Shown here: positions 20,975 to 41,150 of the stretch, one piece after another | Layout: each line of letters starts with the position of its first letter | Position numbering within the stretch: position 1 is the stretch's first letter | DNA from: Limnanthes douglasii subsp. nivea | Lineage: Eukaryota; Streptophyta; Magnoliopsida; Brassicales; Limnanthaceae | DNA length: 64,000 bases | Direction of reading: 5' to 3' | Assembly (NCBI GenBank): GCA_036936605.1 | Contig: JAUPFV010000004.1 | Location: 136,967,473 to 137,031,472 of the forward strand | Translations under genes and position numbers: made by a program | The notes under the pieces: model-generated | Told to the model about the DNA's origin: nothing | Database searches by the model: none | The model's input: the letters and a program-made list of their open reading frames with translations, nothing else

Positions 20975-21110
20975 TTCAGATTTTTTTCTTCAATATGAAA
21001 TGTCCATTTTGTCCTTCATTTATAAGACCAAGTTTCTAAGAAAAAACCAACTTCCCCCACTTCTCCCTCAATCTTTCTCTCTCTAAAATAACTAAAAACT
21101 TTAAAAAATC

Positions 21111-24100
21111 ATGGATTTGAGTGATTGGAGTGAAGGTTTCAGCTGCAACATTGATGATTTTGCATCGGAGGAAGAAGATCCGTTAACGGACCATTTGCAA
21201 ACCTAAAATGAGGTGATTTTCGTGTTTTTAAAGTTTCTGTGCAAATATAGCGGTGGTTGCGCTACAAAATGGATGAACTGCGAACCCAGGGTTCGCATTT
21301 TTGCATGAATTTTTTTGCAAAATCGCGAACGTGATGTTCGCGAATATACCAAATGGGCGAACAACTTGCTCGCGATTTTGCCAAAATTACGAACATCTCC
21401 TTCGCACTAATACCAAATGGACGAACGACCACTACGTAATTTTTCCAAATACACGAGTACGCTGCTCGCAATTTGGCCGAATAGTCGTAATGGTTGTTCG
21501 CGATTTGGCAGAAAAATTGAATTCCGTCTTCGCGAATATGACCTGTTTTCTAAATTAAATGATCAGCTACAATTAAGTATGTTTTCATATAATTGCATCA
21601 ATCACATATGTAGGAACCCGATCAACCGCCATGTTCGATGGCCGATAACACGAAAGTGTTTACGAACACCTTTTACACCAAAGCCGATTTGATTGATTGG
21701 GTCGAGTCCGAAAGCATAAAACTAGGATTCATTTTGGTCCGTAGTAAAAACGACGACGGTAGCAAAAGCATGAAAACTCCTAGGATATATTTTAAGTGCG
21801 AGAGGCACGGGGTTTACAAACCTAACCCCAAACCAGGGTATGTTAAGAAGCGCCGAGAATGTTCATCGAAAAAATACGGGTGTCCGTTCTATTTAAGGGG
21901 GAGTCCGGTCTTAGAGCTACCCGGTTATTGGAAAGTGGTTGTGCTAAACGAGAAACACAACCACAAACCATTTTTTGCACTTGGATGGTCATTCACGGGC
22001 CGCTAGACTAAAAGTCGAAGAACAATTATTCGTTCGTAGTCAAATGGAAGTCGGTTCTCGACCGAGAGAGATATATCGCGGTTTGAAGATTAAAGACCCG
22101 CAAAATGTATCAAACATGCGCACGATATACAACATGCGACAAAAATATGATTTGGGTATAAAGCGGGCAAGACCCAAATGCAATACTTGTTTTCTAAGTT
22201 AAAAGAACATGAGTACTATGTTTGGGAGCGAAGTTGTGAAGCAACGGATGAGTTCCTCGAGTTGCTTTTTGCACACCCTAAAAGCATCGATTTCATGCGC
22301 ACTTTTCCTCAAGTTCTTATAATGGATAGCACTTATAAGACTACAAGGTATAAGATGCCTTTACTTGAAATAGTTGGCCAAACTTCGATGAAGAAGACAT
22401 TTTGTGTTGCTTTTATTTTTTTGAGCTCCGAGAAACAAGAGAACTACACTTAGGGATTGAGCGTTCTAAAGAAGGTGTTGACGAACAACAAGTGCGCATT
22501 ACCTAACATTATCGTCACCGATAGGGAGTTGGCTTTAATGAATGTTATCGATGATATATTTCCGGACGCAACTCATATGTTATGCAATTGGCATATTGGT
22601 AAGAAAGTCACCTCTTATGCCAAAAAAGTTTTACCGAATTCGGACATGGCCGAAGATTTCGCCGAATATTACCAAAGGGTAGCCTATTCGACCACGCTCG
22701 AAGATTATAACAAAAACCTTGCCGAATTGCACCACACGTACACATTTTTTCCATTGGTTATCGAGTAGGTTATGAAGCAATGGATTGACGAATATGGACA
22801 CAAATTTCTCAATATTGACACGAACAAATTTACACATTTTGGCAACCAAACTAGCAATCGGTGAGTTACATTTCCATCTCCACACAATATTTTTTAATAT
22901 CAAGTGTTAGAAATCTAATTTATTTTATCTCATGTTATAGGGCGGAGGGTGCTCACTCTAGCCTCAAGCGGGCGATTGGTAGTAGTCTATGCACGTTCGA
23001 GCAATTTTAGAAACATGTTCATGCATTACTAACCGCTCAATACTCTAAGGTGAGCTTTCATGTAAAGCTATAGAATTAATAGAGACAAATCTCGCAACGA
23101 CCTTGAAAATATGGTTCACTCCCGGAATGTGTGGGTGTGTTATTAGGACAACTCATAATTTACCATGTGCATGCGTATTAGCTTTGATTTATAAAGAACG
23201 AAGGCCGGTTAGAAAAGATGAGTGTGATGTCTATTGGAGTACGTTAAAGATCAAATCTAATGAGGAGTTTGATACCGAAGACGAGCTCACTAGAAAACTC
23301 TCCTTAATAGATAGCACCATCCGCGGTTACGGGCAATACGTCCAAGATCACATTATAAATAGGATGATGCAAATCCTAGATCCCGCTAGAAGTCATGTTT
23401 TGGAACCTAAGGAGCCGGTTGTTACTAAAGGTAGGAAAAAAGTCGGCCGAGACTAATCAAGTCAACGGGACCCTAGTGAATGGGAATACGATGGTAGTCT
23501 AGGCGCTAGCACTCCCGACACGATAGGCAGCACGGCCGCCTCGGTAGATAATAAAACATTTTTAGCGCCAAAAGCCAAGGAGAAAGAAAAAGCGAAAACC
23601 AAGGCTCAACCGAAGAAAGATAAAGTGCCTCGATCGAAAAAATCATCAAAGGGAAAAGATTTTAGCGGCTACGAGAGTTGGTTTCCTAACTATTTGCATG
23701 ACTACATTTCTAGCGTCAAAGACATCTCTCCCGACGGTAATTGCGGATTACGGGCCGTTGCTTTGACGGTAGACGGTAAATCTGATTCATGGGACCAAGT
23801 TAGACGGGATTTGATCGGGGAATTGCAAATGAACGCGAGCTATGGGAGATAGTGTTTGATGGTTCACAAGGTGTAGATAACCTAGTGAGAAGGTTGAACG
23901 TTTTTTATTGTATGGTGCTGGTACTAGGCATTGGATGACGTTACCTGATTTAGGCTTAGTGATAGCCACTAGATACCAATGTATCGTATACCACATTTCA
24001 CTCCACCAATCATACACTTATCTACCTCTACGCGGTGTGCCTCCTCGATCGTGTCCTAACCTGGAAGTTGGTATAGGTTTTGTGCACGGTAACCATTTCG

Positions 24101-24367
24101 TGAAAGTAAGTATACAAATGAAAGTTTCAATTTTATATATTATTGTGTGACCAAATATTTATCTTACTTTGATTTGTGTAGGTTGTGTTGAATGGACCAC
24201 TTCCGGAAATTTATCCTACTTGGTTTCCGTTTCGCACAGAAGATGCCGTCACCGGTTGGGCAATACCGCTCGACAAGAGATTGAACAAACATAACCAAAT
24301 CAAGCCCGCCGAACCATCGACCGCACACGAAGAGCCACCACGTGTCTTCGATTTGGGTGAAGACTAA
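21111..24367 (+). pseudogene. MULE-A transposase-OTU fusion gene, disabled
   Basis: The gene would encode the MULE transposase fused to an OTU-like cysteine protease. Inferred exons: 21111-21212 (acidic MDLSDWSEGF...), 21614-22860, 22941-24105 and 24182-24367, with GT-AG introns of 401, 80 and 76 bp. Domains: FAR1/WRKY-GCM1-like zinc region (21638-21970, CPFYLRG..KHNH); DDE core with D at 22325 (MDSTYK), D at 22520 (TDRELALMN), a CNWH motif and E at 22945 (AEGAHSSLK); SWIM-type finger CGC..THNLPCAC near 23130; basic linker; OTU block DGNCG (Cys 23742) with GNHFVK (His 24094). Lesions: stops at 21204, 22451, 22766, 23008 and 23454; frameshifts near 21970, 22158, 23835 and 23905; and a deletion near 23040-23100. 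Catalytic residues are still present. Confidence 0.85.
21280..21545. repeat. MULE-A hairpin array 1 (32-bp period), in transposase intron 1
   Basis: Seven or eight units of a GCGAAC-N5-GTTCGC hairpin plus a 'gaTTTtgCCAAAt' spacer. The right stem (TTCGC-type) occurs at 21336, 21368, 21400, 21432, 21464, 21496 and 21528, exactly 32 bp apart, with a first unit 45 bp earlier at 21291. The loops vary. The array lies entirely inside the inferred first intron (21213-21613). Similar arrays with the same motif occur at 24590-24760 and 31060-31210. Open frames crossing it are by-products of the periodicity. Confidence 0.85.
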
Positions 24368-24589
24368 TAATTTGTTTATGCATTACTTGTTTTTATCCCG
24401 TTGTGTTTACGAATACTTTTTTTTACTTTCACCTCGGTTTGTTATCGATAATCCCACGTTTTATTTATTTTGAAAATTCCATTTCATAACTTTATTGTAA
24501 AATTAATAACCACCTTAAATTAAATTGCAATTTGCGCAAAAAAATTAAAATTTTATCCAAAAAAATGGAAAAAATTTCAAATAATCGGC

Positions 24590-24760
24590 ACAGTGGCGAA
24601 TTTACGAATAGAGAACGTTTGATTGTGGCCAAATTGCGAACGCCGAGGGCTACAATTTCGAAAAATCGTGAACGGGCTGTTTGCGATTTTGGCAATCCAC
24701 AGCCTCATGCGTTCGCGAATCTGACAAATTACAGCATCCCGTGTTCGCGAAAATCTTTGT
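24590..24760. repeat. MULE-A hairpin array 2, after the transposase-OTU gene
   Basis: The same GCGAAC/GTTCGC-type units as array 1, about 220 bp past the stop codon at 24367. Right stems at 24679, 24711 and 24743 are again exactly 32 bp apart; the units further left (about 24617 and 24649) are more degenerate. The position between the gene end and the small-gene region matches the MULE-B array at 37011-37086. It could also overlap the 3' UTR or terminator region of the gene. Confidence 0.8.
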
Positions 24761-24769
24761 AAATTTAGT

Positions 24770-25380
24770 ATTTTCACCATTTTGTGACTTTCCCGACTCC
24801 AAAACTGATTTTTCTTTTTACCAACATTATACATTAGTCATTTGGCTCGAATGATTCGAATTTTATGGAAAAAAAAACTCAAAAAAGTTGAATAAACTAC
24901 TTCAAGGTAGCCTAAAATGGTCACAATTTTGACATTTTCACGTTTATTTACTTTTTTAGTCCGAAACGTTTTTTAAACCATCATTATTAGTTGTGATTTG
25001 AAGTATCATATATGAACCGAAACATGAAAATATACAAAATAGTATCGTACATCAACCATTTACAATAGCACCAAAATATAGAAAACAGTATCATATAAAA
25101 TGGTCACAATTTTGACATTTTCACGTTTATTTACTTCTTGAGTCCAAAATTTTTTATTTTTTAACCATCATTATACGTTAGTCATTTTCACTGTAATGAT
25201 TTGAAATTTTTGGGAAAGAATAATAATTTAAAAACACCCTAAAAACTACTTAAAAGTAGCTTACCGTTGTCAGACATGTAAGGATAACGTAATCTGAATA
25301 GGCGACTAATGTTGTGACACATAATATATACAAAAATACACACATATCGAAGATCATTATTACGACCCACGTGGTTTAAA
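24770..25380. other. Spacer between array 2 and the small-gene cluster
   Basis: No gene is seen. A segment 'aaaatggtcacaattttgac' plus 'attttcacgtttatttactt' occurs at about 24914 and again at about 25098, with 'ccatcattat' blocks following each. This is a local direct repeat of about 184-bp spacing. Confidence 0.5.
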
Positions 25381-25383
25381 GCA

Positions 25384-25448
25384 GGGTCTCATTATAGCTA
25401 AGGACAACACTGCATTCGAAAGGGTATGAATTTCGCTATAATAAGACC
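25384..25448. repeat. Inverted pair of TIR-like motifs upstream of the first small gene
   Basis: GGGTCTCATTATAGC at 25384 and GCTATAATAAGACC at 25435 face each other across about 36 bp. Both are versions of the module found twice in each MULE-A TIR. The downstream gene starts at 25578, with 'cctataaaatagg' as a likely TATA box near 25490. A mirror-image pair at 26808-26863 lies upstream of the second small gene. The pair could be an internal transposase-binding site or a promoter element shared with the TIRs. Confidence 0.7.
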
Positions 25449-25577
25449 TTATCCAAATATTAAACGCCCACCAAAATTGACTCGCCCCCTATAAAATAGG
25501 ACATAAAATCTAGAAAAATACGACACTTGGGCAACCTATAGCATTCACGAAAATATAAAACTCGTTAACGTTTACAT

Positions 25578-25946
25578 ATGGAGTTTACGACGGACGAAGA
25601 CTACCTCATGCTTCAAGCTGTGAAGATTGCACGCCAGATACTGGGGGAAGATACTAGCGATCAGTTTTTCAAACCTGTCCTATGTACGATGTATATAAAC
25701 TATGGCCGTTTAGGTACAAGAGGTATCGTTATGCGTACTCGTGAGCAGATCAAACGCAGATACAATTTTTGCAAGCCAATACAACATTTGTGTTTCTTGC
25801 CATTGCTAATTAAGCAAGAAGCAGTTGTCGTTTGGAACCTGAGCTTGATAGACTACATCACAAGGGATATGGTAGCATTTCTAGAGGACAGAATTATTAC
25901 AAGGGGTGGAGTGGATGATGTGGAATACAAACTTAGATACGACTAA
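25578..25946 (+). CDS. MULE-A small protein 1, SANT/Myb-like (tentative)
   Basis: An uninterrupted 122-codon ORF starting MEFTTDEDYLMLQAVK. Features shared with its three neighbours: an acidic-aromatic N-terminal (E/D)D-x2-L-x2-A block, an LCxMYxxYGR block near residues 37-46, RTREQIKRRY near residues 54-63, and ITRDMVAFL near residue 95. The DED...A...RxxxQIKxRY pattern resembles the start and third helix of SANT/Myb-like (trihelix-type) DNA-binding domains, but the assignment is tentative. It is about 55% identical by eye to the protein at 26322-26699. The start is the only ATG ahead of the conserved block. TATA-like 'ctataaaat' and the TIR-like motif pair lie upstream. It is intact although the transposase gene is dead. 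Confidence 0.6.
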   Translation: MEFTTDEDYLMLQAVKIARQILGEDTSDQFFKPVLCTMYINYGRLGTRGIVMRTREQIKRRYNFCKPIQHLCFLPLLIKQEAVVVWNLSLIDYITRDMVAFLEDRIITRGGVDDVEYKLRYD

Positions 25947-26321
25947 GCCTTCCACTTATGTTATTTTACGTTGTTATTTTATTAGCGGTTATTATTTGAA
26001 GTTGTGATTTTTCTTATTAGTTGTTGTTTAAAGTTGTGATTTTCGTATTACTGGTTGTTAAGTTAAGTTGTGATTTTTTAATTAGTCGTTGTTTGAAGTT
26101 GTGATTTTCCCGACCTGGTTGTTAATTTAAGTTGTGATTTTTCATATTAGTTGTTGTGTTAAGTTGTTATTGTTCTTATTAGTTGTTTTCTTAAGTTGTG
26201 GATACCAAATAATGTCTACAAAACATGGTAATGGAAACTATAACAAGTTATAGCATTAACTTAAACAAACAGACAATATAAAACCTACAAGATGCAAACA
26301 ATTACAAACATAGCATAATGC

Positions 26322-26699
26322 TCAATCTTCGAAGTCATATCCCAAGTTGTCGTTAGATTCAATCCCCTCTTCCCTCTCAGTAATCCTATTCTGAAGATAC
26401 GCTACCATATCCTTAGTGATGTAGTCTACCACCGTCATGTTCCAGACGACAACTGTTTCTTGCTTAATTTTAAATGGTAGAAACAACAAACGATACATTG
26501 GTTTGCAAATAATGTACCTCTCCTTGATTTGGTCACAGTTACGCACAACAAAACCTTCAGTTCCCAAACGGCCGTAGTTGTAGTACATATTACACAAGAC
26601 CAGCTCGAAAAATGCATCGTTACTATCTCCCCCCAACTCTCGGAGGGCAAGTTTCACTGCCTCGAGCAAATGGTAATCTTCATTAGGGGTAAACTCCAT
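26322..26699 (-). CDS. MULE-A small protein 2, SANT/Myb-like (tentative)
   Basis: An intact 125-codon ORF on the minus strand, paralogous to 25578-25946: MEFTPNEDYHLLEAVK, LCNMYYNYGRLG, RNCDQIKERY, VVWNMTVVDYITKDMVAYL and an acidic tail NLGYDFED. The promoter side (to the right) has 'ttataaataga' on the minus strand near 26740 and the TIR-like motif pair at 26808-26863. Proteins 1 and 2 and their upstream motif pairs form an inverted, convergent duplication with 375 bp between the stops. MULE-B carries a truncated copy of this gene at 37576-37835. Function is unknown; a DNA-binding or co-factor role is inference from the basic RxxxQIKxRY segment. Confidence 0.6.
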   Translation of the reverse strand: MEFTPNEDYHLLEAVKLALRELGGDSNDAFFELVLCNMYYNYGRLGTEGFVVRNCDQIKERYIICKPMYRLLFLPFKIKQETVVVWNMTVVDYITKDMVAYLQNRITEREEGIESNDNLGYDFED

Positions 26700-26739
26700 T
26701 GGTTAAACTGTTTATGTTCGAGGAGTGCTTAACGTCTAT

Positions 26740-26748
26740 TTATAAGCT
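26740..26748 (-). promoter_or_regulatory. TATA box of small gene 2
   Basis: On the minus strand the sequence reads TTATAAATAG about 40 bp before the ATG at 26699. This is closer to the ATG than usual, implying a very short 5' leader. It is downstream of the TIR-like motif pair at 26808-26863. Confidence 0.4.
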
Positions 26749-26807
26749 CATGGTTGTTTGGGCGGGAACTACATTAAACGCGGGTGTTTTTGGCGGAAAT
26801 TTTTGTA

Positions 26808-26863
26808 GGTGTCTCGTTATAGCGAAAAACCTGGTAATGGAAGTTATGCTATAATGAGACCCC
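26808..26863. repeat. Inverted pair of TIR-like motifs upstream of the second small gene
   Basis: GGTGTCTCGTTATAGCG at 26808 and GCTATAATGAGACCCC at 26848 form an inverted pair. The arrangement is the mirror image of 25384-25448 and is conserved in MULE-B at 37852-37907. The second member matches the TIR module GGCTATAATGAGACCCC almost exactly. Confidence 0.75.
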
Positions 26864-27070
26864 TACTATTATTGCACTACAACATTTGAGTACTTTTGTA
26901 AATATTAGGTGTCGCATAATCATTCGTCAACTTGGATTACGTTATCCTTATCTTACAAGTGTCATTTATTGATAGGGCTACTTGGATTACGCTATCTTAA
27001 GCATAAAAATGGTACAAAAAGATGTTTTTTTAGGCAGAACAAATAATAGCCAATATACCATTTGCAAAAA

Positions 27071-27487
27071 ATGTGTCCGTGGACTGAGTTGGAAGATCAA
27101 TATCTGATGATGACATCAGCTGAAGTTGGTAACACGAACATGATACAAGGGGGTAGAAACTACTGGGAGGCATTGCAATGCAAGATGTAATTCCTATATG
27201 GAAGGGATGATGTTCAGCCGCCTAGAATTTTAAGGGGTGTTGATGAGGTGAAAGGTAGGTGGTCAGTCCTAGTCATATTCCGCCAACATCCAGTTTCTGG
27301 CCTCACCGAATTGGAACGTCGTGTTGCGTGTAACCGGTTCAACTGTAAAGTCACGGATTATATAACACAAGACCAGCTGGATTCGGTCCGCGCTGACATT
27401 ATCGACATCCGGCTAGAGGAAATGCGTGACTAGCAGGATGCGAAAGAATAAAGGAAGTTGATGAAATGGAACTGGCCTGATAGATAA
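27071..27487 (+). pseudogene. MULE-A small protein 3, SANT/Myb-like, with in-frame stops
   Basis: One reading frame from ATG 27071 (MCPWTELEDQYLMMTSAEV) to TAA 27485 (ending LMKWNWPDR), interrupted by TAA at 27188, TAG at 27431 and TAA at 27449. Conserved blocks follow the family order: WTELEDQYL, YWEALQCKM, YGRDDVQPPRILRG, DEVKGRWSVL and ITQDQLDSVRADI. DEVKGRW corresponds to REQIKRRY of proteins 1 and 2. MULE-B has an internally deleted copy at 38108-38254 that keeps the same C-terminal tail without the stops, which supports the assigned end. MULE-C has a more decayed copy at 4938-5375. Confidence 0.6.
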
Positions 27488-27539
27488 ACTCCGATTTGGA
27501 TTTATGTTAAAGTTCATGTTCTAGACTATGTTTTAGCGT

Positions 27540-27670
27540 GTGTTTTATTTTATGTTTGAGTTTCTGATTCCATTCATGTTTGAGATTATGTTTGAATTTC
27601 TGGTTCCGTTCATGTTTGAGTTTATGTTTGAGTTTCTGATTCCGTTCATGTTTAAGCATATGTTTGAGTT
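27540..27670. repeat. GTTTGAGTTTMTG minisatellite 3' of small gene 3
   Basis: Tandem 'atgtttgagtttctgattccgttc' modules of 12 and 24 bp. MULE-B has a related 12-bp-module repeat at the same place, 38290-38425. The repeat keeps both strands open and produces spurious reading frames (about 27507-27887). It probably belongs to the 3' untranslated region. Confidence 0.8.
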
Positions 27671-27927
27671 TATAAAAAAATTTGAGTTTCCGCACTTTAC
27701 TGCTGTTATTCATAAAAACAACACAAGGTACAAACATAAAAACATAATAACAAGAAAACATAAAAACAGCAAAACATATAATAATCGTCCGAATATTATA
27801 ATATTGCATTTTTTATGGAGGGAATGGAGTGAAGGTTTCTTGCCTAAAAGAGATTTACGCGGGAACAAAAACAACATTTCCCACTAACGATTTTAGAATT
27901 GAACCACTGACTTTGAGTCTATAAATA

Positions 27928-28277
27928 GGCATTGAACAGTAAATCGTCCCTCGACTATCGCGTTTGGTGGCAGATAGTCCCTTGACTTTTAAATGTCCGT
28001 TGACGGTCCTTGGACTATCGCGTTTGGATAAAGTTAGTCCACCAGATCCTCTAATCCATGAGAGGCTGCCACCTGTCACCATAGTCCCCAGATTTTTGTA
28101 TCACCACTAGCCCCTTGAGTTTAGGTCAAACACAAAATGTAGAATATTACGGAAAACTAAACTCAAGGGACTAGTGGTGATACAAAAATCTGGGGACTAT
28201 GGTGACATGTGGCAGCCTCTCATGGATCAGAGGATCTGGTGGACTAACTTTATAGGGACGATGTATTGTTCAAAGCC
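27928..28277. mobile_element. 350-bp fold-back MITE with 9-bp target duplication
   Basis: The ends are inverted repeats: GGCATTGAACAGTAAATCG at 27928 and, as reverse complement from 28277, GGCTTTGAACAATACATCG. The 9-bp sequence CTATAAATA flanks both sides (27919-27927 and 28278-28286), consistent with a Mutator-type MITE. Inside, roughly 28035-28128 is repeated as its reverse complement at 28153-28252, giving a near-perfect palindrome with a short loop. The left part also has two 'actatcgcgtttgg' direct repeats. It lies nested in MULE-A just upstream of small gene 4, and its target is that gene's TATA box. Confidence 0.9.
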
Positions 28278-28286
28278 CTATAAATA
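28278..28286 (+). promoter_or_regulatory. TATA box of small gene 4, duplicated by MITE insertion
   Basis: CTATAAATA, 42 bp before the ATG at 28328, is both the likely TATA box and the right copy of the MITE target duplication. The same sequence lies on the far side of the MITE at 27919-27927. The insertion therefore left a TATA box next to the gene but replaced all upstream sequence with MITE DNA. Confidence 0.5.
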
Positions 28287-28327
28287 CTAAGAATCTGACT
28301 ATGAAACTAAACATTTAAGTTATAACA

Positions 28328-28795
28328 ATGGGTGATTTAGGCTGGAACGTGCACGACGATGCAAGCCTCCTAAACGCATTTGACTTCGTCAGAGGTACGA
28401 TGCAAGAGGAGATTCCTGGTTTCATCGATGCGGTTTTGTGCAGAATGTTCTTCAAGCACGGTAGGGAGGCATCCTGTCTAGGATGTTTGATGCCCCGACT
28501 ACGCGGACGCGAAGAAGTGTTCGATAGGTTAGCTTATCTTAAAACGGTTACTATACAGATTGAGTCGCTAGCTTACGAAGTCCGAAGCAAAGTCCGAAAT
28601 GTATTCAACATGGGATTCCAAAATACAATTACGCAGGAAATGGTGACATATGCGATACAGCAAATGAAGCAAGAAATAGCCGATGCAATAGCCAGCGCCG
28701 TTGATACTAACTCAACTCCCGAAGGAAGTAGTGATGAAGAGGAATATTCGTTCGAGAAACGCTTTGAGTATGAAATGAACTATCCGACTCCATAA
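28328..28795 (+). CDS. MULE-A small protein 4, SANT/Myb-like (tentative), longer member
   Basis: An intact 155-codon ORF: MGDLGWNVHDDASLLNAF, then IDAVLCRMFFKHGREA, LRGREEVFDRLAYLK, and NTITQEMVTYAIQQMKQE. It ends with an acidic tail (SSDEEEYSFEKRFEYEMN). Blocks, order and spacing match proteins 1-3 (HDDxxLLxA, LCxMxxxxGR, RxREEVxxR, ITQEMV), so it is a diverged family member with an extended C-terminus. No MULE-B counterpart was seen. A MITE sits immediately upstream. No function can be assigned; the region after the putative SANT part could form a helix. Confidence 0.55.
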   Translation: MGDLGWNVHDDASLLNAFDFVRGTMQEEIPGFIDAVLCRMFFKHGREASCLGCLMPRLRGREEVFDRLAYLKTVTIQIESLAYEVRSKVRNVFNMGFQNTITQEMVTYAIQQMKQEIADAIASAVDTNSTPEGSSDEEEYSFEKRFEYEMNYPTP

Positions 28796-28799
28796 AACT

Positions 28800-29150
28800 A
28801 AGTGTGCAATGCTAACTGAGGGTTAGCTTATCCATCGTTTGCTTTAAGTTATTTGCTTATGTATTTCTAATTATGCAATACTTTTGATTAAAGTGTAATG
28901 TTTTAATAGAATCGACATATTAAGAAGTTTAAGTGTTATTGTTTTTAAGATACACATCCAAACAAAAGCAACTCCATAAAATCATATCAACGAAAGCAAC
29001 AACTTAAGTAAAACAAAAGGTAAACATCCAAACAAAATCAATAACTGAAGCAACAAAAGAAATTCCATAAAATCATATAAACGAAAGCAACAACTGAAGT
29101 AAAAAAAAAGGTAGTACCAAAAAATCATCCTAGTAGTCATATAATACACA
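28800..29150. other. Spacer between small gene 4 and the PMD gene 3' end
   Basis: No gene is seen. Two imperfect copies of 'aattccataaaatcatat.aacgaaagcaacaactgaagtaaaa' (about 28970-29020 and 29060-29108) form a direct repeat about 90 bp apart. Confidence 0.5.
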
Positions 29151-29155
29151 TGCAG

Positions 29156-30970
29156 TCAATCGACTTGGCGGTACTCGTGCGCCAAAAGCAAAAACTCGTG
29201 CATCTCCCGACGCATCTCCTCCATACTCATCTCGTCCGCTCTAGAATATCCATCAATCACACGATCGCAAATGTCATACAGTCGTGCCTGATAAGTCATC
29301 GCACTCGGGGTCTCTGGAACATGTGAACCAGATGGACCGACCACACTAGGATCAAGTAGAATGTACCATAGGTGGTCACGGATCCATACATCATACAAAG
29401 AGGTCGTGCCATGACCACCTATAACATATGTATCACCACGAATCCTTGCGTCAATAACGTGTGACTGCCAGCCTATCCATGTGGCCTCATCCCACAAAAG
29501 CGCGTGTTGACACGCCTCCTCCTATCTGCCGGTAAAACAGCCCGCAACGCCGGTGGTATGTCCTGAATGTGCCCTAGCTGTCGAGCAACCCGAAGTGGAT
29601 AGTACGCCTCAACTATGTCGAACGCCTTCAGTGTGTGGTCAATCCAAGCCACAGCTTGGAAAGGGAAATCATCACGCATCGTAAGATAAGGCATGAACCA
29701 AACCTAAAATATGTAAGTTAATAATGTTTTAAAATCTATAAGTAATAATAAATTAACGATACATAAACAAATGTAACAAATCATCGTAACTCACGTTGTT
29801 CTCTGTCAACGAAATCAGTATCTGTCGGATGTTGATACGAGTCTCATCATCCGCACGAAACAGTGTCGGTACATATCGGCGCATAGTCGGCATAGAAGAC
29901 TCGTAGAGAGTGTTCAGTGTAGTCAAATAGGGGTGGAAGTGATCGTATATCCACGTCTCCAACAAGGCAACAAAACCTGCAATCCCTAAAGTGGAGTGCA
30001 ACGACGACTTTCCTAGATGGTGGTACAACTGAGCTAGTATATGCTGGCCCCAGTTATATCTAACGGACGCCCTATAATGCTCTACAACCTGCAAGTAATC
30101 TAACGATATACTATTCCCCGTCTTGTTCACCAAAATACAACAACCCAACATGTGAAGCAGATAACCCCTAGTGACACACTCTACAGTACTATCAGACATG
30201 GTATCATCCATAAAATGGGGCTGCATGTACTGCTCACGTAAAAACTGTAAACGAACAGATCTAGCATTACCCCCCTGTTACGCCCTAACTTAGTCCTAAA
30301 TGCATCCTCGGGTATACCTAATGCCCTAGAATACCATGCCAAACGCTGTCCATTACTAGGAAATGTCTGAATAATAAAATCATCACCTGGGACCGGGAGA
30401 CCAGAAATAACGTGGACGTCGTCTAACATCACCGTCATCTCACCGAAACAGAAGTAAAAGCTGTTGATCTCCGAATGCCACCTCTCAAGAAAAGCATCTA
30501 CCAGGTGTACGTTGGTACTCCAACGCTCCAAGACATCGGTGAGGGGACCGAAGCAAGACATCATAACCTGACGTCTGACCCTGCTCTGCCCAGCAAGATC
30601 CCATACACGATGGGTACCGTATATTGACTAGTACCGCGACGACCGACGAGCCTACATAAAACATCAATAACTTATAAATAATACAAAAGACCGTACGTCA
30701 TACTTTAAACCAATCATTACTTACCTCTCCTCCAAAGACGCTGTATGCCTTGTGCTGTGCGTAGTCTGGATATAGATTAGGCACATGCGGATTCAGCTTC
30801 CAAAATTGCTGATCCAGTGTCCCAAACGCATGGGATATAATAGGGTCCAGAGTCGAAGCGCTAGGCCTACGCCTTACAGACCGTGACCCTGACCGTGATA
30901 CAACCTCCTCATGCTCGCTATCACTGCTCGAGCCTGAATTTCGAACAAGTGCATGCTGTGTGCGAGGCAT
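29156..30970 (-). pseudogene. MULE-A plant mobile domain (PMD) gene, disabled
   Basis: Inferred exons on the minus strand: 30970-30725 (MPRTQHALVRNS..., Ser/Glu/Arg-rich), 30651-29795 and 29703-29156, with GT-AG introns of 73 and 91 bp. Exon 2 holds the PMD signature: NVHLVDAFLERW, FCFGEMTVMLDDVHVISGLP, then YLLHMLGCCILVNKTGN, YNWGQHILAQLYHHLGK and LLETWIYDHF. Exon 3 has FDIVEAYYPLRVARQLG. Known PMD proteins (MAIN, MAIL1 and transposon-encoded relatives) act in the nucleus in gene and transposon silencing. Lesions: TAG at 30630-30628, a one-base loss in a G run near 30275-30270, and a frameshift near 29505. A CT-rich leader and further 5' intron lie upstream, toward the right TIR. Confidence 0.8.
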
Positions 30971-31059
30971 GCTGAAATACAACAAATAAAATCATTAATA
31001 AATTTGGGAATAAAAACATCATAATTTGACAAAACAGCCAAAATTGGGCATCTCCTGTT

Positions 31060-31210
31060 TTTGTGAAATTGCGAACAGTGAGCTTGCAATTTAACCAAAA
31101 TTGCGAACAAGTTGTTCGCAATTTTGGTTAAATTGCAAGCTCACTGTTCGCAATTTCACCAGTCCTTGAAGTGCAAAATCGCGAGCTGCTTGCTCGTGAT
31201 TTTGCACTTC
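31060..31210. repeat. MULE-A hairpin array 3, in the PMD 5' intron
   Basis: Units of the same type as arrays 1 and 2: GCGAACAGTGAGCTTGC at 31071, GCGAACAAGTTGTTCGC at 31103, GCAAGCTCACTGTTCGC at 31135 (32-bp steps), and GCGAGCTGCTTGCTCG at 31181. On the minus strand a splice acceptor (tatttcag) abuts the PMD ATG at 30970, and 'aag|gtacg' near 31459 could be the donor. The array therefore probably lies in a 5' UTR intron, as array 1 lies in intron 1 of the transposase gene. Confidence 0.8.
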
Positions 31211-31573
31211 CAACAGCCTTTAAACCCTAAATCTACAATCGAACCCAAAACCTACAAACATAATCCAAATTCAACAAAAATGGTACCAAAACGTGCCTAA
31301 TGCATAGACTAACACAAATCTACAACTATTTTTTCAAAAAAAACAACAGCATATACATGAAAATCAGACTTTTGAGGCGGAACCCTGAACTCTAAATATC
31401 ACTAAAAATACTGAAGTAAATTGCTTAAAAATTACATGAATAGGTAAAGGATTCGTACCTTAACGTGTTTGTAATGTCGGATTTGAGAAATCTTGCCTTT
31501 TTTCGGGATTTTGAGAGATTTTGGTGGAGAGAAGAGAGAAGAGAGAAGAAGAGAGTTGTGGCTGAAAATACAG

Positions 31574-31582
31574 CTTTTATAT
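31574..31582 (-). promoter_or_regulatory. TATA box for the PMD gene inside the right subterminal region
   Basis: On the minus strand the sequence reads ATATAAAAG, followed by a CT-rich stretch (tctcttctctcttctctcc) typical of plant 5' leaders. It lies about 65 bp inside the right end, so the TIR region probably acts as promoter, as is usual for MULE genes. Confidence 0.45.
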
Positions 31583-31601
31583 CAGGAGTAAAAGGGTCTT
31601 T

Positions 31602-31648
31602 TTTGGGGTCTCATTATAGCCAAATGGGGTCTCAATTTAGCCTTGCCC
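31602..31648. repeat. MULE-A right terminal inverted repeat
   Basis: Reverse complement begins GGGCAAGGCTAAATTGAGACC and matches the left TIR at 44 of 47 bases. It contains two GGGGTCTCA(T/A)T-type modules. The target duplication ATGAAAGAA follows at 31649-31657. Confidence 0.95.
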
Positions 31649-31657
31649 ATGAAAGAA

Positions 31658-33640: not shown

Positions 33641-33977
33641 AAAAGATAGTTATCCTGGATTTTAAATCCCTTTAATATTAATTTAATTATTACTTCTAAT
33701 TATGGAAACCCTCAACTGACAGCCATTTTCCCTCTTTTTTGGTCATTTAAACCATTCTCCGATCATCTCCTCCTGCTCTTTGCCGTCATTAAGATGACAG
33801 GATGCGAGCCTCCACTTTCACTTAAGATCTGGCCATCCGCCACCTTACCCATCATCCTCCTGAACATACCCAAAAATACCCACCAAAAGAAAAAGATTCT
33901 CTTAAACTGTTAAAAATTTCATGCCTTTCCAAACAAAAAACCCATATCAAACAACAACAAAATGGGCACTATGTAAC

Positions 33978-36795
33978 ATGGCCGATTATAGCCAAATTTT
34001 TACTACGAATAATTTCTACACCAAGGAGGAATTGATAGCATGGGTTGATAAGGAAAGCAAGAGTATAGGATTCATTGTTGTGGTCGATAACGATGACGAT
34101 GGTAGTAATAACAGTAAAACTCCGCGGCTATATTTCAAGTGCGAGAGACACGATGTTTACAAGTCGAGGCCGAAACCAGGGATTGTGAAGAAGCGACGAG
34201 ATTCTTCATCCAAAAACAATGCGGATGTCCGTTCATGCTTAGGGGAAATCCGGTGTTAGAACTACCCGGTTATTGGAAATTGGTAGTTAGAAATGGAAAA
34301 CACAACCACCAACCCTTCTTGCACTTGGATGGTCATTCACGGGCCGCAAGGTTAAAAGCGGAAGAGGAGGAGTATGTTCGTAAACTCACAACAATCGGTT
34401 CTCGGCCAAGAGATATCTACCGTGGATTGAAGTTAAAATATCCGGAAAATGTATCTAGTATGCGTACCATATACAACATGCGCCACAAGCATCAATTGGT
34501 TGATAAAGCGGGAAAATCCCAAATGCAATACTTGTTCGGTAAGTTGAAGGAGCACGAGTACTATGTTTGGAAGCGAACAAACAAAGAAACTGACGAGATC
34601 CTTGAATCATTTTTCGCACATCCTACAAGAATCGATTTGTTGCGCACTTTTCCTCAAGTGCTTATAATGGATAACACGTACAAGAATACAAGGTATAAAA
34701 TGTCTTTGCTAGAATTAGTTGGCCAAACTTCGACGAAAAAGACCTTTTGTATAACTTTTGTTTTTTTGAGCTCGGAGAAAGAAGAGAACTACACGTCGGC
34801 AATGAGCGTTCTAAGGAGAGTGATGGTGAATAACATGTGCGCGTCACCAAATATTATCGTCATCGATAGAGAGTTGGCTTTAATGAACGCTATCGATGAG
34901 GTATTTCCGGATGCAAGTCATATGTTATGCACTTGGCATATAAATAGGAACATTAGCTCCTACTCTAAGAAATTTTTTCCTAAAGCGGACATGGGTGAAG
35001 AGTTCTTAGAATTTTATGCTGCGGTTCAAATTCGGTGACGATCGAAGAGTATAACAGAAACCTAGCCGAGTTGCACCAAGTGTACACATATTGTCCCAAG
35101 GTTCTCGAGTACGCGATGAAACAATGGATAGACCCTTACGGACACAAATTCCTTTATATCTACACGAATAAAATTAAACATTTGGGCAACCACACTAGCA
35201 ACTGGTGAATTATATTATCATATATATACATTACTTTATTTAAATAATTGTTAGACTTGTAACTAATTTAAGTTTATGGTTTAGGGTGGGGAGTGCTCAC
35301 TTTAGTCTAAAATGGGAAATCGACACACGCCTATGCACGTTTGAACAATTTTGGGATAAAGTTTATGCATTTCTTCGCTTTCAACACTCTACCATCTTCG
35401 AAACGTTTGAACGGAGTTTGTTTCGTCCTAGACAAGCATCTTGGAGAGCTATCTTTAGCGACTTCAAAGGTAAATTTTCATGTACAACCATTCAAATATT
35501 AGAGGAAACTATTAAAATGGCCTGGGATTTTATGGTTCACTCCCGCAAAGTGTAGTTGTGTTATTAGGACAACACACAATTTACCTTGTGCGTGTGAGTG
35601 TGCTACGATCGCGAGAGAAGGTAGGTCGATTCAAAAGAGTGAATGTGATGTTTATTGGAGTACTTTAGAGATCAAGCCTATGGATAACGTTGGTACCGAA
35701 GATGTGCTTACAAGAAAGCTATCCTTAATAGATAGTACCATCTGTGGTTACGGTCCACAAGTGAAAGATCACATAATAAATAGGATGATGCAAATCTTAG
35801 ATCCCGTTAGAAGCCATGTTTTGGAACCTAAGGAACCGGTTGTCACGAAAGATCGGAAAAATCCGGTCCCGACAAGTCAACTAAGTGGAACCCATCCGAG
35901 TGGGAATACGGTAATAGTTTAGGCGCTAGTACTCCCGATACGATAGGTAGCACGACCGCGTCGGCGGTTAAGAAATTTTTAGTACCCAAAGCCAAGTTCG
36001 AATCTAAAGCCCCACCGAAAAAGGAGAAAGCGGCTCGATCTAGAAAAACAAATAAAGGAAAAGGATTGAGTGCGTACGAGAGTTGTTTTCCCGAGTACTT
36101 CCACAACTACATAAGTAGCGTTAAAGACGTTTCTCCTGACGGAAATTATGGATTTAGGGTCGTAGCTTTGACGATTAAAGACAATGTTGATTCATGGGAT
36201 GGAGTGAGAAGGGATTTGATGTATGAACTTTCAAGTCAACGTGATATTTGGGAGAGGGTTTTTGATGGTGCACAACATGTTGATAACCTATTGCGGAGAT
36301 TGGATTGTTTCAAAATGTACGAGAGCGGTCGTAGGCACTGTATGACATTACCCGACTTCGGGTTAGTAATAGCCACTCGGTATCAATGTATAGTGTACCA
36401 TGTATCTCTCCAACTATCATACACGTATCTTCCTTTGCATGGTGTGCCTCCAAGATCATGTCCTATTGTAGAAGTTGGAATTGGTTTCGTACACCATAAT
36501 CATTTTGTGAAAGTAAGTAAACTAATATATTATATGTATACTTCATTTTTATTTTATCATTAAATCCGCTAGGTATTTAATTCTTCCATATTATGGAAAT
36601 TTTCAGATTGTCTTAGATGAACCGTTGCCGGATATATACCCAAGCTGGTTTACGTTCCGCAATACCGATAAGGTTACAAATTGGACCGTACCACTAGGCG
36701 AACGTCTCAACAAGTATCACCAAATTAAACCAGCACAACCACCAACATTACACGATGGGGATGATCAGTTCTATGATTTGTCCGGGGATACATAA
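33978..36795 (+). pseudogene. MULE-B transposase-OTU fusion gene, disabled
   Basis: This is homologous to 21614-24367 and better preserved: 34139-35038 is open for 299 codons. Exons: 33978-35204, 35285-36512 and 36607-36795, with introns of 80 and 94 bp at the same positions as in MULE-A. It has the FAR1-like zinc region (CGCPFMLRG..KHNH), D at 34670 (MDNTYK), D at 34865 (IDRELALMN) and a SWIM-type CSC..THNLPCAC near 35555. The OTU domain spans about 36070-36650 with NHFVK (His 36501). Lesions: single-base losses near 34213 and 35030 and a frameshift near 35857. The third catalytic residue is Gly (GGG at 35289) instead of Glu, and the OTU Cys is Tyr (TAT at 36147). Both enzymes would be inactive even with frames restored. 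The acidic first exon of MULE-A was not found. Confidence 0.85.
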
Positions 36796-36989
36796 TGCGA
36801 TGTAATAGTTTTATTATTTTGTGTTGCTTATTTTCTTGTTTAATCCTTTCCAAACACATTTCGCTACCTCCGACTACTATTGTTTTGGTTTCTATTAATT
36901 TAGAATTTTATTTATGTTTGATCTTAATTATGTTTTATAGTTTGGTATAAAACTTTGGGGTAAAAAGGGTTGAAAACCCATTTGTTTAG

Positions 36990-37090
36990 AAACAAAAAAT
37001 GTCGTTTTTGGCACTCGCACGCGTGGATTTGTACATGCACAGGCGTGCGAGTGCGTGGATTTGTACATGCACAGTCACGCGAGTGCCAAA
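36990..37090. repeat. MULE-B hairpin array 1, after the transposase-OTU gene
   Basis: Two exact copies of GCGTGGATTTGTACATGCAC begin at 37021 and 37053, 32 bp apart. They are bounded by an inverted pair TTTTTGGCACTCGC (37004) and GCGAGTGCCAAAAA (37079). The motif is unrelated in sequence to the GCGAAC motif of MULE-A, but period and position (about 200 bp past the gene stop) are the same. Confidence 0.8.
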
Positions 37091-37211
37091 AACTGTACTG
37101 TTTTTTCCAAAAAAAAGGTTTAGGCTTATTTATTAATTGTTGAGTGGGCGTAAAGTGTTTGTAATGTTTATAAAACATAATTTAAACAACATTTAGAGTA
37201 AAAAAACATTA

Positions 37212-37480
37212 AAAGAAGGAATTTTTTTTGGACTTCAACACAAAATCATTGTAAATGGATACAAAATAAAACATTTGGAAGGAAATCTTTTTTTGGACTT
37301 CAACACAAAATCATGGTAAATGGATACCAAATAAGGCATTTAGAAGGAGTTTTTTTTAGACTCCAACACTAAATCATGGTAAATGGATACCAAATAAGAC
37401 AATTGAAAGTAATTTTTGTTGGACTTCAACACTAAATCATGTTAAATGGATACCAAATAAGACAATTGAAAGGAAATACA
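37212..37480. repeat. 63-65-bp tandem repeat, four copies
   Basis: Copies of 'ggacttcaacac.aaatcatg.taaatggatac.aaataa..cattgaaagg' have their GACTTCAACA block at 37231, 37296, 37359 and 37422. The period is 65, 63 and 63 bp. The last two copies are most alike. It lies between array 1 and small gene 2 of MULE-B and has no counterpart in MULE-A. Confidence 0.9.
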
Positions 37481-37575
37481 TAAAAACTAAAACAGCAAGT
37501 TCAAACAATAACTTAAACAAACAAAAAAAAAATTAGTAAACTACAACATGCAAACAACCAAAGGAATCATAATGA

Positions 37576-37835
37576 TCAATCGTCGAAGTCATATCCTAAG
37601 TTTTCATTAGAGTCAATCATCTCTTACCTTTCCGTAATCCTATCATGAAGATACGCTACCATATCCCTAGTTATGTAGTCTACCACCGCCATGTTCCAGA
37701 CAACGGCTGCTTCTTGCTTAATTTTAAATGGTAGAAACAACAAACGATCCATCGATTTTCAAAAAAGGTACCTCTGCTTGATTTGTTCACGGTTGCGCAC
37801 AACTAAACCTCTCATTCCTAAACGGCGGGATTTTT
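37576..37835 (-). pseudogene. MULE-B small SANT-like gene (copy of small gene 2), N-terminus deleted
   Basis: On the minus strand: RLGMRGLVVRNREQIKQRY, a TGA, KSMDRLLFLPFKIKQE, VVWNMAVVDYITRDMVAYL, then ITER, a TAA, and NLGYDFDD before the stop at 37578. It aligns end to end with residues from about 44 of the protein at 26322-26699. The first 43 codons and proximal promoter are missing: sequence jumps directly to 'ggcgggattttttggcgggaat' and the TIR-like pair at 37852. A deletion of the 5' end plus two stops make it a pseudogene. Confidence 0.75.
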
Positions 37836-37851
37836 TGGCGGGAATTCTTTA

Positions 37852-37907
37852 GGGGTCTCGTTATAGCGAGACACCTAATAATGGAAATTCCGTTATAATG
37901 AGACCCC
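37852..37907. repeat. MULE-B inverted pair of TIR-like motifs
   Basis: GGGGTCTCGTTATAGCGAGA at 37852 and CGTTATAATGAGACCCC at 37891, the counterpart of 26808-26863 in MULE-A. It is preserved even though the adjacent gene lost its N-terminus. The flanking text 'gtcgca.aa.cattcgtcaacttgg' also matches MULE-A (about 26911-26935). Confidence 0.75.
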
Positions 37908-38107
37908 TATAATTGCACTGTAATATTTGCGTACTTTTGTAAGTATTAGATGTCGCAAAAGCATTCGTCAACTTGGATTACGTTATCCTTATCTTACAAG
38001 TGTCGTTTATTGATTGGTCTACTTGGATTATATAATCTGAAGCATAAAGGCCTTTAAGTAGACGTTTTCGAGGCAGTAAAAATTATAGCAAATATACAAT
38101 TGCAAAA

Positions 38108-38254
38108 ATGTGTCAATGGACTGAGTTAGAAGATAAATATCTGATGAGGGCATCAGTTGAAGTTGGTAACAGGAACATGCTACAGGAAATGCATGGCTAC
38201 CAGGATATGAAAGAAGAAAGAAAGTTGATGAAATGGAACTGGCCTGATAGATAA
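38108..38254 (+). pseudogene. MULE-B small SANT-like gene 3, internally deleted (48-codon open frame)
   Basis: ATG 38108 reads MCQWTELEDKYLMRASVEV, then jumps from the N-terminal part to the C-terminal QDMKEERKLMKWNWPDR, and stops at 38252. Compared with 27071-27487 about 270 bp are missing. The joint lies near 'acaggaaatgc', where both flanks share a few bases. The frame is kept, so a 48-residue protein could be made, but the GRxxVxPPRI and KGRW blocks are lost. The C-terminal tail lacks the stops of the MULE-A copy. Confidence 0.7.
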
Positions 38255-38289
38255 ACTCCAATTTGTACCAGTGGATGGCTTATGTTACC

Positions 38290-38425
38290 GTTTATGTTAT
38301 TGTTATGTTTTAGTTTGTGTTTTAGTTTATGTTTGAGTTTGTGTTGGAGTTTGTGTTTCTAAAAATGTTTGAGTTTGTGTTTCAGCTTATGTTTGAGTTT
38401 ATGTTGCAGTTTGTGCTACTTTGAT
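38290..38425. repeat. GTTTGAGTTTRTG minisatellite, MULE-B counterpart
   Basis: 12-bp modules 'gtttgagtttrt' and variants in tandem after small gene 3, corresponding to 27540-27670 in MULE-A but with the plain 12-bp unit instead of a 24-bp higher-order one. Confidence 0.8.
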
Positions 38426-38586
38426 GTTGTTTTTAAAGTTAGATTTTGAACAAATATTTGGGAGAGGTTACAAAATGATTATATCTTTAAAGTTTAATAT
38501 AATATCAAAATTATATCATTCAAATGTAACAAAATGCCATAACACGTAATTAAAAAATAACACAATACCATAACACAAAATTTAAA

Positions 38587-40812
38587 CTAATCGTAAAGTA
38601 AATAACACATAAAAAGTCTTAAACTGTAAACCCGGTAGCACTCGTCCAGAGGCTCATGAAGGTCCTCCAAACTAATGCCATGGTGGCTCTGCTCGAATGC
38701 CTGTAAATCCAGTAGGTGCGTAGTCAGCTCGTGCAATCTGGTGGCATGTGTGGGTGCGGAAGGGTTCACCCCTAACTCTGCATAAGCTCGGTGAGCCTCT
38801 GGATCAGATATGATGTATCACAAGTTCTTCGTAACCCATGAAGATTAGATCAAAGTGGTACCATCCTCCTGGCCAGGAATATACTCTCCACCTTTTAAAC
38901 TCTGGTGAATACAGTGTGACTCCCAGTTTCCCCAAGTGAATGCATCCCAGTTGTAGAGGGTGTTCGCACGACGAACCCTACTAAAACCGGTAAGAATAAG
39001 ACGCAGTGCACCAGGAACCTGTATTTAAAAAAAATCTATAACACACATGTGCAAAACAAACAATATTAATATTTCGAGTATCCCAAAATATTACCTGCTG
39101 GATGCGACCCAACTGTCTAGCCACCCGTAGCGGATAGTATGCCTCGACAATGTCCGACGCCTTCAGTGTCACATCTATACAAACTACATCAGAGTGACCT
39201 CGAACATCCATCATGCTCGTATACGGCATGAATGATACCTACAAAATATTAACAAATCATTTAGCATTAGCAACTTATATTAAATTTAAATATCACGATA
39301 ATTAAAAATGAAACTAATTATAACTTACATCGTGCTCGGTGAAGGTAGCCAGGTAATCTCGAACACCGTTTCGAGCTTGTTGGCTTTGTCGAAACTGTGG
39401 AGGCTCATACTTGCACAAAGTAGGATGTGCGATACTAAAACTCGGGTACTGATGAGCTGAAAATAACGAGAAATGGTCGTAAATCCATGTCTCTAACAAG
39501 CCCAAAAATCCAGAAATACTGGAAGTAGCGTGTAGGCATCCTTTGCCTAGCTGGTAGTAGAGTTGCGCGAGTATCATCTGTTCCCAGTTATACCAGCCTG
39601 AGCTATTGTAATCATCTATGAACTGTAAGTAGTCGAGGCTAATGTTGTTGCCCGACTTGTTGGACAATATGGTACAACCAAAGAAGTGCAACAAGTAACC
39701 CCAAGTAGCTCAGCGAACATCCGAATTAGTAATATCATCGTCGTAATACTGATCAGTGCAGAATCGTCTCTTCAGCCATCCAAGGCGAACATGCCTCTTA
39801 CCCCCCTCCCCCCTTTGTTCTCCCCAAATCTCTACCACAAGTTCCTGAACACTGCACCCAAGTAAGCGAGCATATGCCACATTACGCTCATCAATAGTAG
39901 AGTACTCATATATCTCACAATTGGCACCCACAACTGATAGCCATGTGATCATGTAGACATCATCGAGGGTGATTGTCATCTCCCCGAAAGAGAAATGAAA
40001 TATGTTCGTCTTAGGATTCCATCTCTCCAAAAATGCCTCTATCAGATGAACATTTGTAGCCCATCGACCCAGAGCGTAAACAATGGGTCTGAAACATGTG
40101 GCCATCACCTGCTCATGTACTCGTGTCTGGCGGACTTTCAAGTCCTAACCACGGTGAGTCTAGTACATAGTATAACACCGCATATGTACCCTCGGCTGCA
40201 TAAAAAATATAATATAAACATATATGCAATCTAACATTTAAGATAAACCAATAACCAATATGTTCAATATATAAAATCTAACAACTAAGATAAACCAATA
40301 ACTTAAATCATAAGTATAACATATAAGATACACCAATAACCAATAAATCCAATAACAAATAAAACATATAAGATAAACTAATAACAAATAAATTCATTCT
40401 AACATAAACTAATAAATTCTATAAGAAATATAAGTTATAACACAAACCAATAACCAATCCAATGCAATAGACAATGTTTTAAACATAAAACTATAACTAT
40501 AACACATGCCACATTACATCTAAAAATAATAACTTTAACAAATAAATTAAAACTAAAAAACTTACATCGCATTTGAATACGCTATAAGACTCATGCTTTT
40601 TGTAGGCATGGAATGTCGAGTATAGGTTGATCACATGACAGTTATATCTACGGAAGCGCTGGTCCGTAGTGCGACGACGGCGAACAGGGGCGACCTGTAA
40701 GTCCCCTCTAGTACATTGACGGACGCTCTAAGACGTCTCGCCTTGTACCATCTCTTCGGTCTCATCAGCTGTATCTAGGTCCGTAGTGGGAGAACGAGGG
40801 CGTGGAGGAATC
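38587..40812 (-). pseudogene. MULE-B plant mobile domain (PMD) gene, disabled
   Basis: Inferred exons on the minus strand: 40812-40566, 40195-39329, 39238-39095 and 39018-38587. Exon 2 carries NVHLIEAFLERWNPKTNIF, FSFGEMTITLDDVYMITWL, YLLHFFGCTILSNKSGN, LAQLYYQLGKGCLH and LLETWIYDHF. Exon 3 carries LKASDIVEAYYPLRVARQLG. This is a PMD protein like that of MULE-A, at perhaps 50% identity. The codon matching the MULE-A start reads ATT, so the start appears lost. Stops include TAG at 40162 and 40147 and TGA at 39712. An extra 76-bp intron (39094-39019) splits what is one exon in MULE-A. The last exon (LHELTTHLLDLQAFEQSHHG) has a short heptad-like stretch. Confidence 0.8.
40200..40565 (-). other. 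Long first intron of the MULE-B PMD gene, filled with AT-rich tandem words
   Basis: Between donor GTAAGT at 40565 and acceptor TATGCAG at 40197-40196. It consists of many short 'aagataaaccaataac' repeats of about 30-40 bp. The equivalent MULE-A intron is only 73 bp, so this intron has expanded by internal repeats. Confidence 0.6.
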
Positions 40813-40956
40813 CTACACGAGACAAAAAAATTACTCAAACGGATTTCAAATTTAAAAAAAAATGTAAAAAGATAGAAAATATGTATCATAACACGCGAAA
40901 AGTTTAAAATAATCAAAATCGGGGGAAAAGGCTCAATTACATAACAACACACTCAA

Positions 40957-41150
40957 ATGCATGGATTTGGACAGATCCACACATTGCAGATTTGTCAAAT
41001 CCACGCAGCGTGGATCTGTCCAAATCCATGCTGCGTGGGTTTGTTATTTCCTCGCACGATTTCGTGCGAAGAAATACCGGATGCACGCGTGTTCTTGCGT
41101 GCATCCGGTATTTCCAAGCACGAAACCGTGCGAGGAAATACCAATCCCAG
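40957..41150. repeat. MULE-B hairpin array 2, upstream of PMD exon 1
   Basis: The right half has three consecutive 32-bp palindromes centred at 41060.5, 41092.5 and 41124.5. Arms include TATTTC..CGCACGA, TACCGGATGCACGC (14-bp perfect arms, 41075-41088 and 41097-41110) and TTTCC..GCACG. The left half (40959-41040) consists of shorter modules 'gtggatctgtccaaatcca' about 25 bp apart in alternating orientation. Position matches array 3 of MULE-A, in a likely 5' intron (an acceptor lies at 40814-40813). Confidence 0.8.

Follow-up and report, generated by a model that had tools for sequence, protein, structure and literature searches.

The window considered here is a stretch of 64,000 nucleotides from Limnanthes douglasii subsp. 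nivea (assembly GCA_036936605.1, contig JAUPFV010000004.1, 136,967,473 to 137,031,472). It contains two Mutator-like elements (MULEs), MULE-A and MULE-B, each of which encodes a transposase (PF10551) and a plant mobile domain (PMD) protein (PF10536). The PMD gene is separate from the transposase gene, lies kilobases away on the opposite strand, and is not fused to it. Both elements carry arrays of short, mostly palindromic repeats, which an earlier note on this DNA had described as hairpin arrays with a strict 32-bp period, conserved between the two elements in period and position though not in sequence. The arrays present in the window are as follows.

21280-21540, plus strand: array A1, in transposase intron 1 of MULE-A; a palindrome at 21288 is followed from 21325 by seven units of 32 bp
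24590-24760, plus strand: array A2; TTCGCG-type half-sites in direct repeat with a 32-bp step, some 220 bp downstream of the transposase stop and with no hairpin
31060-31205, minus strand: array A3, in PMD intron 1 of MULE-A; block 1 has three units and block 2 one unit
37010-37095, plus strand: array B2; a long hairpin in altered form, some 220 bp downstream of the transposase stop of MULE-B
40958-41031, minus strand: array B3a, in PMD intron 1 of MULE-B; GTGGAT-type palindromes in a 25-bp register
41032-41149, minus strand: array B3b, in the same intron; alpha-beta-alpha palindromes in a 32-bp register, folding as one long hairpin

The places occupied in the two elements are non-coding and equivalent, as had been claimed, although the MULE-B counterpart of 21336-21528 can be read only in other copies. 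This array, B1, lies in transposase intron 1 of MULE-B relatives and has been lost from the window copy, which lacks its 5' end. Splice sites were called by eye, at 21213-21613 for transposase intron 1 of MULE-A and at 30972-31458 (MULE-A) and 40813-41382 (MULE-B) for PMD intron 1. The first of these calls is backed by the MULE-B relatives, with which the exon-1 region (65-78%) and the exon-2 region align and the stretch between does not. MULE-A and MULE-B can be aligned on both flanks of transposase intron 1, as well as on the donor side of the PMD-intron array.

Sibling copies were sought in 1.78 Gb of genome sequence, the DNA searches scoring 40 of 339 candidates in the first instance, 40 of 498 for MULE-B and 40 of 1490 for exon 2. 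The A1 set has 24 rows, locus L017 contributing two, and the A2 set has 16. The 12 rows of A3 include one cut by its start (L034) and one with a deletion beside the array (L030), while another fetched locus (L035) yielded none. Twelve MULE-B 5' regions were fetched; three lacked the motif beta and one (L085) failed the boundary parse, leaving eight for the lag test. For the PMD intron, 20 loci came from the 40 MULE-B places scored and another 20 from 954 anchor matches. At L017 (4336-8632) a MULE-A copy has its 5' part, including array A1, doubled in tandem.

The seven units of A1, of which the later ones are degenerate, begin at 32-bp intervals between 21325 and 21517, in agreement with the units reported at 21336-21528. 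The palindromes described at 31071-31135 were likewise recovered, centred at 31079, 31111 and 31143, as were those of MULE-B centred at 41060.5, 41092.5 and 41124.5. The best self-match lag was 32 or 64 in all 24 rows of A1 (64 in 20 and 32 in 4), 32 in 16 of 16 rows of A2, 32 in 8 of 12 rows of A3, and 32 in seven of the eight B1 sequences, the eighth giving 64. The 32-bp autocorrelation that was to be looked for in other family members is therefore found in A1, A2, B1 and most A3 rows, but not uniformly in B3. Among the palindrome centres of the 20 MULE-B PMD-intron loci, distances of 32 occur 21 times and distances of 12.5 or 25 occur 17 times, and by eye one copy (L053) carries a long run of 25-bp units. 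Since the registers of the MULE-B PMD intron are mixed, the 32-bp step is dominant rather than universal; the strict period fails at 40958-41031, and the argument that the step places all sites on the same helix face leaves this 25-bp block uncovered. Units are also gained and lost: between fixed anchors the length of A3 ranges from 305 to 426 bases, mostly changing in steps near 32.

The arrays just past the transposase gene require separate comment. The sequence GCGTGGATTTGTACATGCAC is indeed present in the window MULE-B at both 37021 and 37053, but as a 32-bp direct repeat it is restricted to the window copy (one of 12 read) and is not a feature of the family. Each of the 11 other copies read has one direct and one inverted occurrence of the motif, 30 bases apart, which together give one long hairpin with a folding energy of -52 to -89 kcal/mol; the anchor was missing from five of 12 further B2 regions. 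At 24679-24743 the 32-bp step stands, as a direct repeat of half-sites, but the hairpin array supposed to lie there does not (fold z of -1.5). The palindrome count is zero in both window A2 and window B2.

All 13 of the GCGAAC/GTTCGC hexamers of MULE-A fall inside its three arrays; MULE-B has six, none of them in its arrays. Genome-wide, the pattern GCGAACN5GTTCGC occurs 1008 times, against 63 for the reversed pattern. Palindromes number 88 in the 20 MULE-B PMD-intron loci (shuffle mean 3.1), 26 in 12 MULE-A PMD introns including that of the window (shuffle mean 1.0), and 42 in the 20 further anchor loci (shuffle mean 3.8), seven of which have none; 10 of these 20 lack beta within five mismatches.

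In the window copies the arrays of one element have 9-mers in common in four of four pairs (A1-A2 12, A1-A3 12, A2-A3 4 and B2-B3 5), and the arrays of different elements have none in six of six (shuffle means at most 1.25). By this measure the motif is shared within a family and differs between related families, though the half-site GCGAA crosses the lineages. It ranks first among the 5-mers of A1 and A2, and the eight B1 arrays contain 39 copies of it (shuffle mean 7.7). Because GCGAA is common to the MULE-A arrays and the MULE-B transposase-intron array, the array sequences of the two elements are not wholly unrelated, and their earlier description as such holds for the longer motif only. 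The half-sites are GCGAAC in MULE-A and CTTCGCA, CTCGCACG and CCACGC in MULE-B relatives. In these relatives the motifs alpha and beta recur in the transposase intron as well as the PMD intron, beta being present at 9 of 12 loci of the first and 31 of 41 of the second, and in both introns they run in the sense direction of their own gene. The core of beta is identical in the two introns; its outer arms differ, three pairs having changed on both sides.

Over 19 rows we counted one insertion or deletion (indel) in 221 bp of A1. The remaining intron had 6 in 125 bp (p = 0.01) and the 5' sequence 13 in 184 bp (p = 4e-4), homopolymer indels being omitted and bases being treated as independent in the p values. 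Divergence at A/T sites was 0.061 in A1 as opposed to 0.023 in the remaining intron, and at CpG sites 0.067 as opposed to 0.095. A1 holds its length about as well as coding sequence, yet changes faster, since its indel rate is like that of the exons and its A/T divergence lies above that of the intron. Mean variability within the units was 0.128 for the inner spacer, 0.065 for the half-sites and 0.070 for the linker. The B3 arrays, counted for substitutions and indels over 16 rows (L042 and L052-L055 omitted), had a lower A/T divergence than the intron.

Based upon these features we tentatively suggest, at somewhat short of an even chance, that each element carries in cis recognition arrays for a DNA-binding protein of its own, resembling in logic the arrays of the VANC anti-silencing proteins. 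The recognition arrays would occupy three equivalent non-coding places, namely transposase intron 1, the region just past the transposase gene and PMD intron 1, and each would consist of a lineage-specific half-site repeated in register, mostly of 32 bp and sometimes of 25, and mostly paired head to head as palindromes. A dimeric element protein may read the half-sites and spread cooperatively along the array, because sites 32 bp apart would face the same side of the helix. The bound array would then mark and switch on the genes of the element, presumably by preventing silencing in the way that VANC proteins do. The reader might be the transposase, through its FAR1 domain, the fast-diverging PMD protein or one of the small helix-turn-helix-like proteins. 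The arrays themselves are a real and orderly feature, and probably a functional one, and their logic is VANC-like.

A number of results weigh against such recognition arrays. The remainder of transposase intron 1 is also unalignable between MULE-A and MULE-B, so that the array is not alone in failing to align. The lags of B3 are mixed, with 64, 49 and 25 leading in 18 rows, and the alpha-beta distance is 33 bp in the transposase intron (9 of 9) as against 32 in the PMD intron (31 of 31). The indel rate of A1 is not below that of the exons, where 15 were counted in 1541 bp (p = 0.71). Protection of its half-sites is seen against the inner spacer but not against the linker. For B3b the depletion of indels is borderline (3 in 114 bp versus 28 in 374, p = 0.08), and in B3a it is absent (7 in 74, p = 0.63). 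The sharing of 9-mers by A2 and A3 merely equals the largest of 200 shuffles, and that of 7- and 8-mers by A1-A2 and A2-A3 stays within it. The sequence CACGCGC is absent from A1, A2 and A3 of the window and from 8 B1, 4 B2 and 17 B3 sequences. The proteins named as readers are candidates only.

The elements and the genes from which such a reader might come are as follows.

20928-31648, no strand assigned: MULE-A, the whole element, with 47-bp inverted ends at 20928-20974 and 31602-31648
21111-21212, plus strand: MULE-A transposase exon 1, donor GAG|GTGATT, with an in-frame stop in the window copy
21614-24367, plus strand: remainder of the MULE-A transposase gene, with FAR1 DNA-binding domain PF03101 and MULE domain PF10551; frame broken
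25578-25946, plus strand: small protein 1, a candidate reader and a paralogue of small protein 2
26322-26699, minus strand: small protein 2, with a predicted three-helix N-terminal half, weakly Myb/helix-turn-helix-like
28328-28795, plus strand: small protein 4, a distant member of the family of small proteins 1 and 2
29156-30971, minus strand: coding part of the MULE-A PMD gene, Pfam PF10536 in two pieces; broken
33978-41604, no strand assigned: MULE-B, 5'-truncated and beginning at exon 2, its right end set by eye

PMD is the protein that has diverged most between the two elements, its main pieces being 45-47% identical, with one piece at 33% and another at 65%; in-frame pieces of the transposase are 54-76% identical and small protein 2 is 73% identical over 82 residues. 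The divergence of PMD is compatible with a reader that tracks the motif, and says nothing of binding. Small proteins 1, 2 and 4 belong to a single family. The predicted model of small protein 2 has a three-helix N-terminal half weakly resembling Myb and other DNA-binding domains, only one of five models exceeding a predicted local distance difference test score (pLDDT) of 52. Homologues of small protein 2 were not found in a large protein database at an E value of 0.001, nor did the small-protein profile match sequences of solved structures at an E value of 1. An OTU domain, suspected by eye in the tail of the transposase, had no Pfam match in the pieces scanned.

To our knowledge, the VANDAL elements of Arabidopsis are the best-described case of transposons that counter silencing in a sequence-specific manner. 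The published passages on the VANC targets of these MULEs describe tandem repeats of a short motif in introns and other non-coding parts, the motif differing between related families and the repeats expanding and contracting (Hosaka 2017, PMC5735166). The arrays described here resemble them in all of these respects, namely tandem short motifs in the non-coding parts of a MULE, motifs that differ between families, and units that are gained and lost. The comparison with VANC drawn in the earlier note holds to this extent, but the VANC domains DUF1985 and DUF287 had no Pfam match in the 20 open pieces of both elements that were scanned, the copies being broken and the scan not covering every piece. 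Further differences from the VANDAL system as far as it is described there are that the arrays here are mostly palindromic with a 32-bp (or 25-bp) register and are known from sequence alone. VANDAL ends are described as degenerate in the part of PMC10398659 considered here; the terminal inverted repeats of MULE-A are 47 bp long and 94% complementary. Sibling copies of MULE-A end at approximately the same places as the window copy.

PMD sequences have been captured by MULEs of grasses and Amborella as fusions, and their use in anti-silencing has been speculated upon, according to passages of Ikeda 2017 (PMC5418596). The present elements agree with these in being MULEs that encode a PMD protein, and differ in that PMD is a separate gene on the opposite strand; arrays are unmentioned in those passages. 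Host PMD proteins have been tied to a promoter motif (PMC7156037). In neither of the main texts of known work compared does the term "palindrom-" occur, and within the literature searched, which included few subscription journals and in part only excerpts, no description was found of arrays of this kind in PMD-carrying MULEs or of a register-bound palindromic design. The site of FHY3/FAR1, which bind as dimers, is given as CACGCGC in the sections of PMC6000157 compared. The transposase here likewise has a FAR1 DNA-binding domain and the MULE-B arrays are rich in CACGCG; unlike the FHY3/FAR1 site, however, the full heptamer is missing from the arrays counted and the MULE-A arrays lack even CACGCG.

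A broader proposal, which we consider rather unlikely, is that PMD-carrying MULEs evolved a self-recognition code of their own apart from VANC, in which a protein of the element would read a palindromic half-site peculiar to the lineage, recurring roughly every three turns of the helix at three fixed regulatory places, and so keep the element's own copies active, length being selected while sequence changes. If true, a second lineage of MULEs combining VANDAL-like array logic with a PMD protein would suggest that self-recognition codes arise repeatedly. The guess that MULE-borne PMD proteins act in anti-silencing (PMC5418596, as far as its passages state it) would then become directly testable with defined target sites.

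Alternatively the arrays might act as structured RNA, that is, as stem-loop units of first introns and of the downstream transcript that are recognised by an RNA-binding protein or processed to small RNAs. The folds are very strong, with z values in the range -16 to -19 (-17.5 for A3 and -16.2 for B3). Among 303 segments of 120 bases covering the plus strand of both elements, 12 fold with z below -4, and 10 of these overlap A1, A3, B2 or B3; the other two are a nested inverted repeat (28068) and an internal stretch resembling the terminal repeat (37818), and none comes from A2, whose lack of a hairpin speaks against an RNA. The long hairpin of B2 in the 11 other copies, and the compensated pairs in the outer arms of beta, would both be expected of an RNA; yet only 9 of the 14 pairs compared can form in the beta of the transposase intron. 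The beta core keeps the sense direction in both introns despite the opposite strands of the two genes, but this is in effect one evolutionary observation. Double changes are modestly above shuffles in B2 (10 versus 6.4, reached by 22 of 1000) and A3 (7 versus 4.1, 44 of 1000), and in all three sets tested a share of paired cells as high as that observed is reached by 4 to 6 of 1000 shuffles; related sequences can, however, exceed such shuffles without any structure. In the PMD alpha-beta-alpha array double changes are not in excess (13 versus 11.9, 379 of 1000; 26 of 31 sequences, L036, L048, L054, L055 and L070 being omitted). Changes that keep a G-U pair are not favoured (28 versus 33 events in B3 and 34 versus 34 in A1), although this wobble test has low power since most changes resemble decay after insertion. 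We lean towards DNA rather than RNA as the target, because A2 keeps its half-site step without a hairpin, covariation is modest or absent and the wobble test was null; a role as structured RNA appears improbable.

It is similarly improbable that these are subterminal arrays bound by the transposase for transposition, as in other DNA transposons, their intron location being a by-product of nearness to the ends. In CACTA elements, for example, subterminal repeat arrays are bound by TnpA. As there, short and partly inverted sites recur near both ends, A1 lying about 350-610 bp and A3 about 440-590 bp from the respective ends of MULE-A, and the FAR1 domain would give the transposase a means of binding. 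Unlike the TnpA sites, the arrays here have a 32-bp step and occur inside introns and also in mid-element, where A2 and B2 nevertheless carry the shared motif. Distance from the ends alone does not explain why the array lies close to the splice donor in one gene and closer to the acceptor in the other. We also doubt that the arrays are neutral remains of an ancestral 32-bp GCGAA repeat turning over, without any reader, by slippage and by template switching between palindrome arms (a process that can perfect palindromes), as the shifts of unit number in steps near 32 bp, or of 25 bp in L053, the GCGAA common to both lineages and the variable half-sites of A1 would allow, for arrays kilobases apart carry the motif of a single lineage and A1 has fewer indels than its non-coding neighbours alongside more substitutions.

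Several other repeats were observed in and near the two elements. Copies of the terminal-repeat sequence (GGGTCTC..TTATAGC) lie between the genes of both, at 25380-25450, 26806-26870 and 37850-37910, as though the element were a composite of units or each gene possessed a terminal-repeat promoter of its own. Behind small protein 1 (25959-26200) is an AT-rich, non-palindromic tandem repeat with a period near 32 (or 65) bp, and behind B2 in MULE-B (37215-37475) a 63-bp tandem repeat of about four copies. The 350 bp at 27928-28277, with near-perfect inverted arms of 97 bp, are missing from several sibling MULE-A copies and represent a nested hairpin insertion. Outside the two elements, 54564-57323 contains a Copia-like retrotransposon, named by eye from its translations, with its open frames in pieces.

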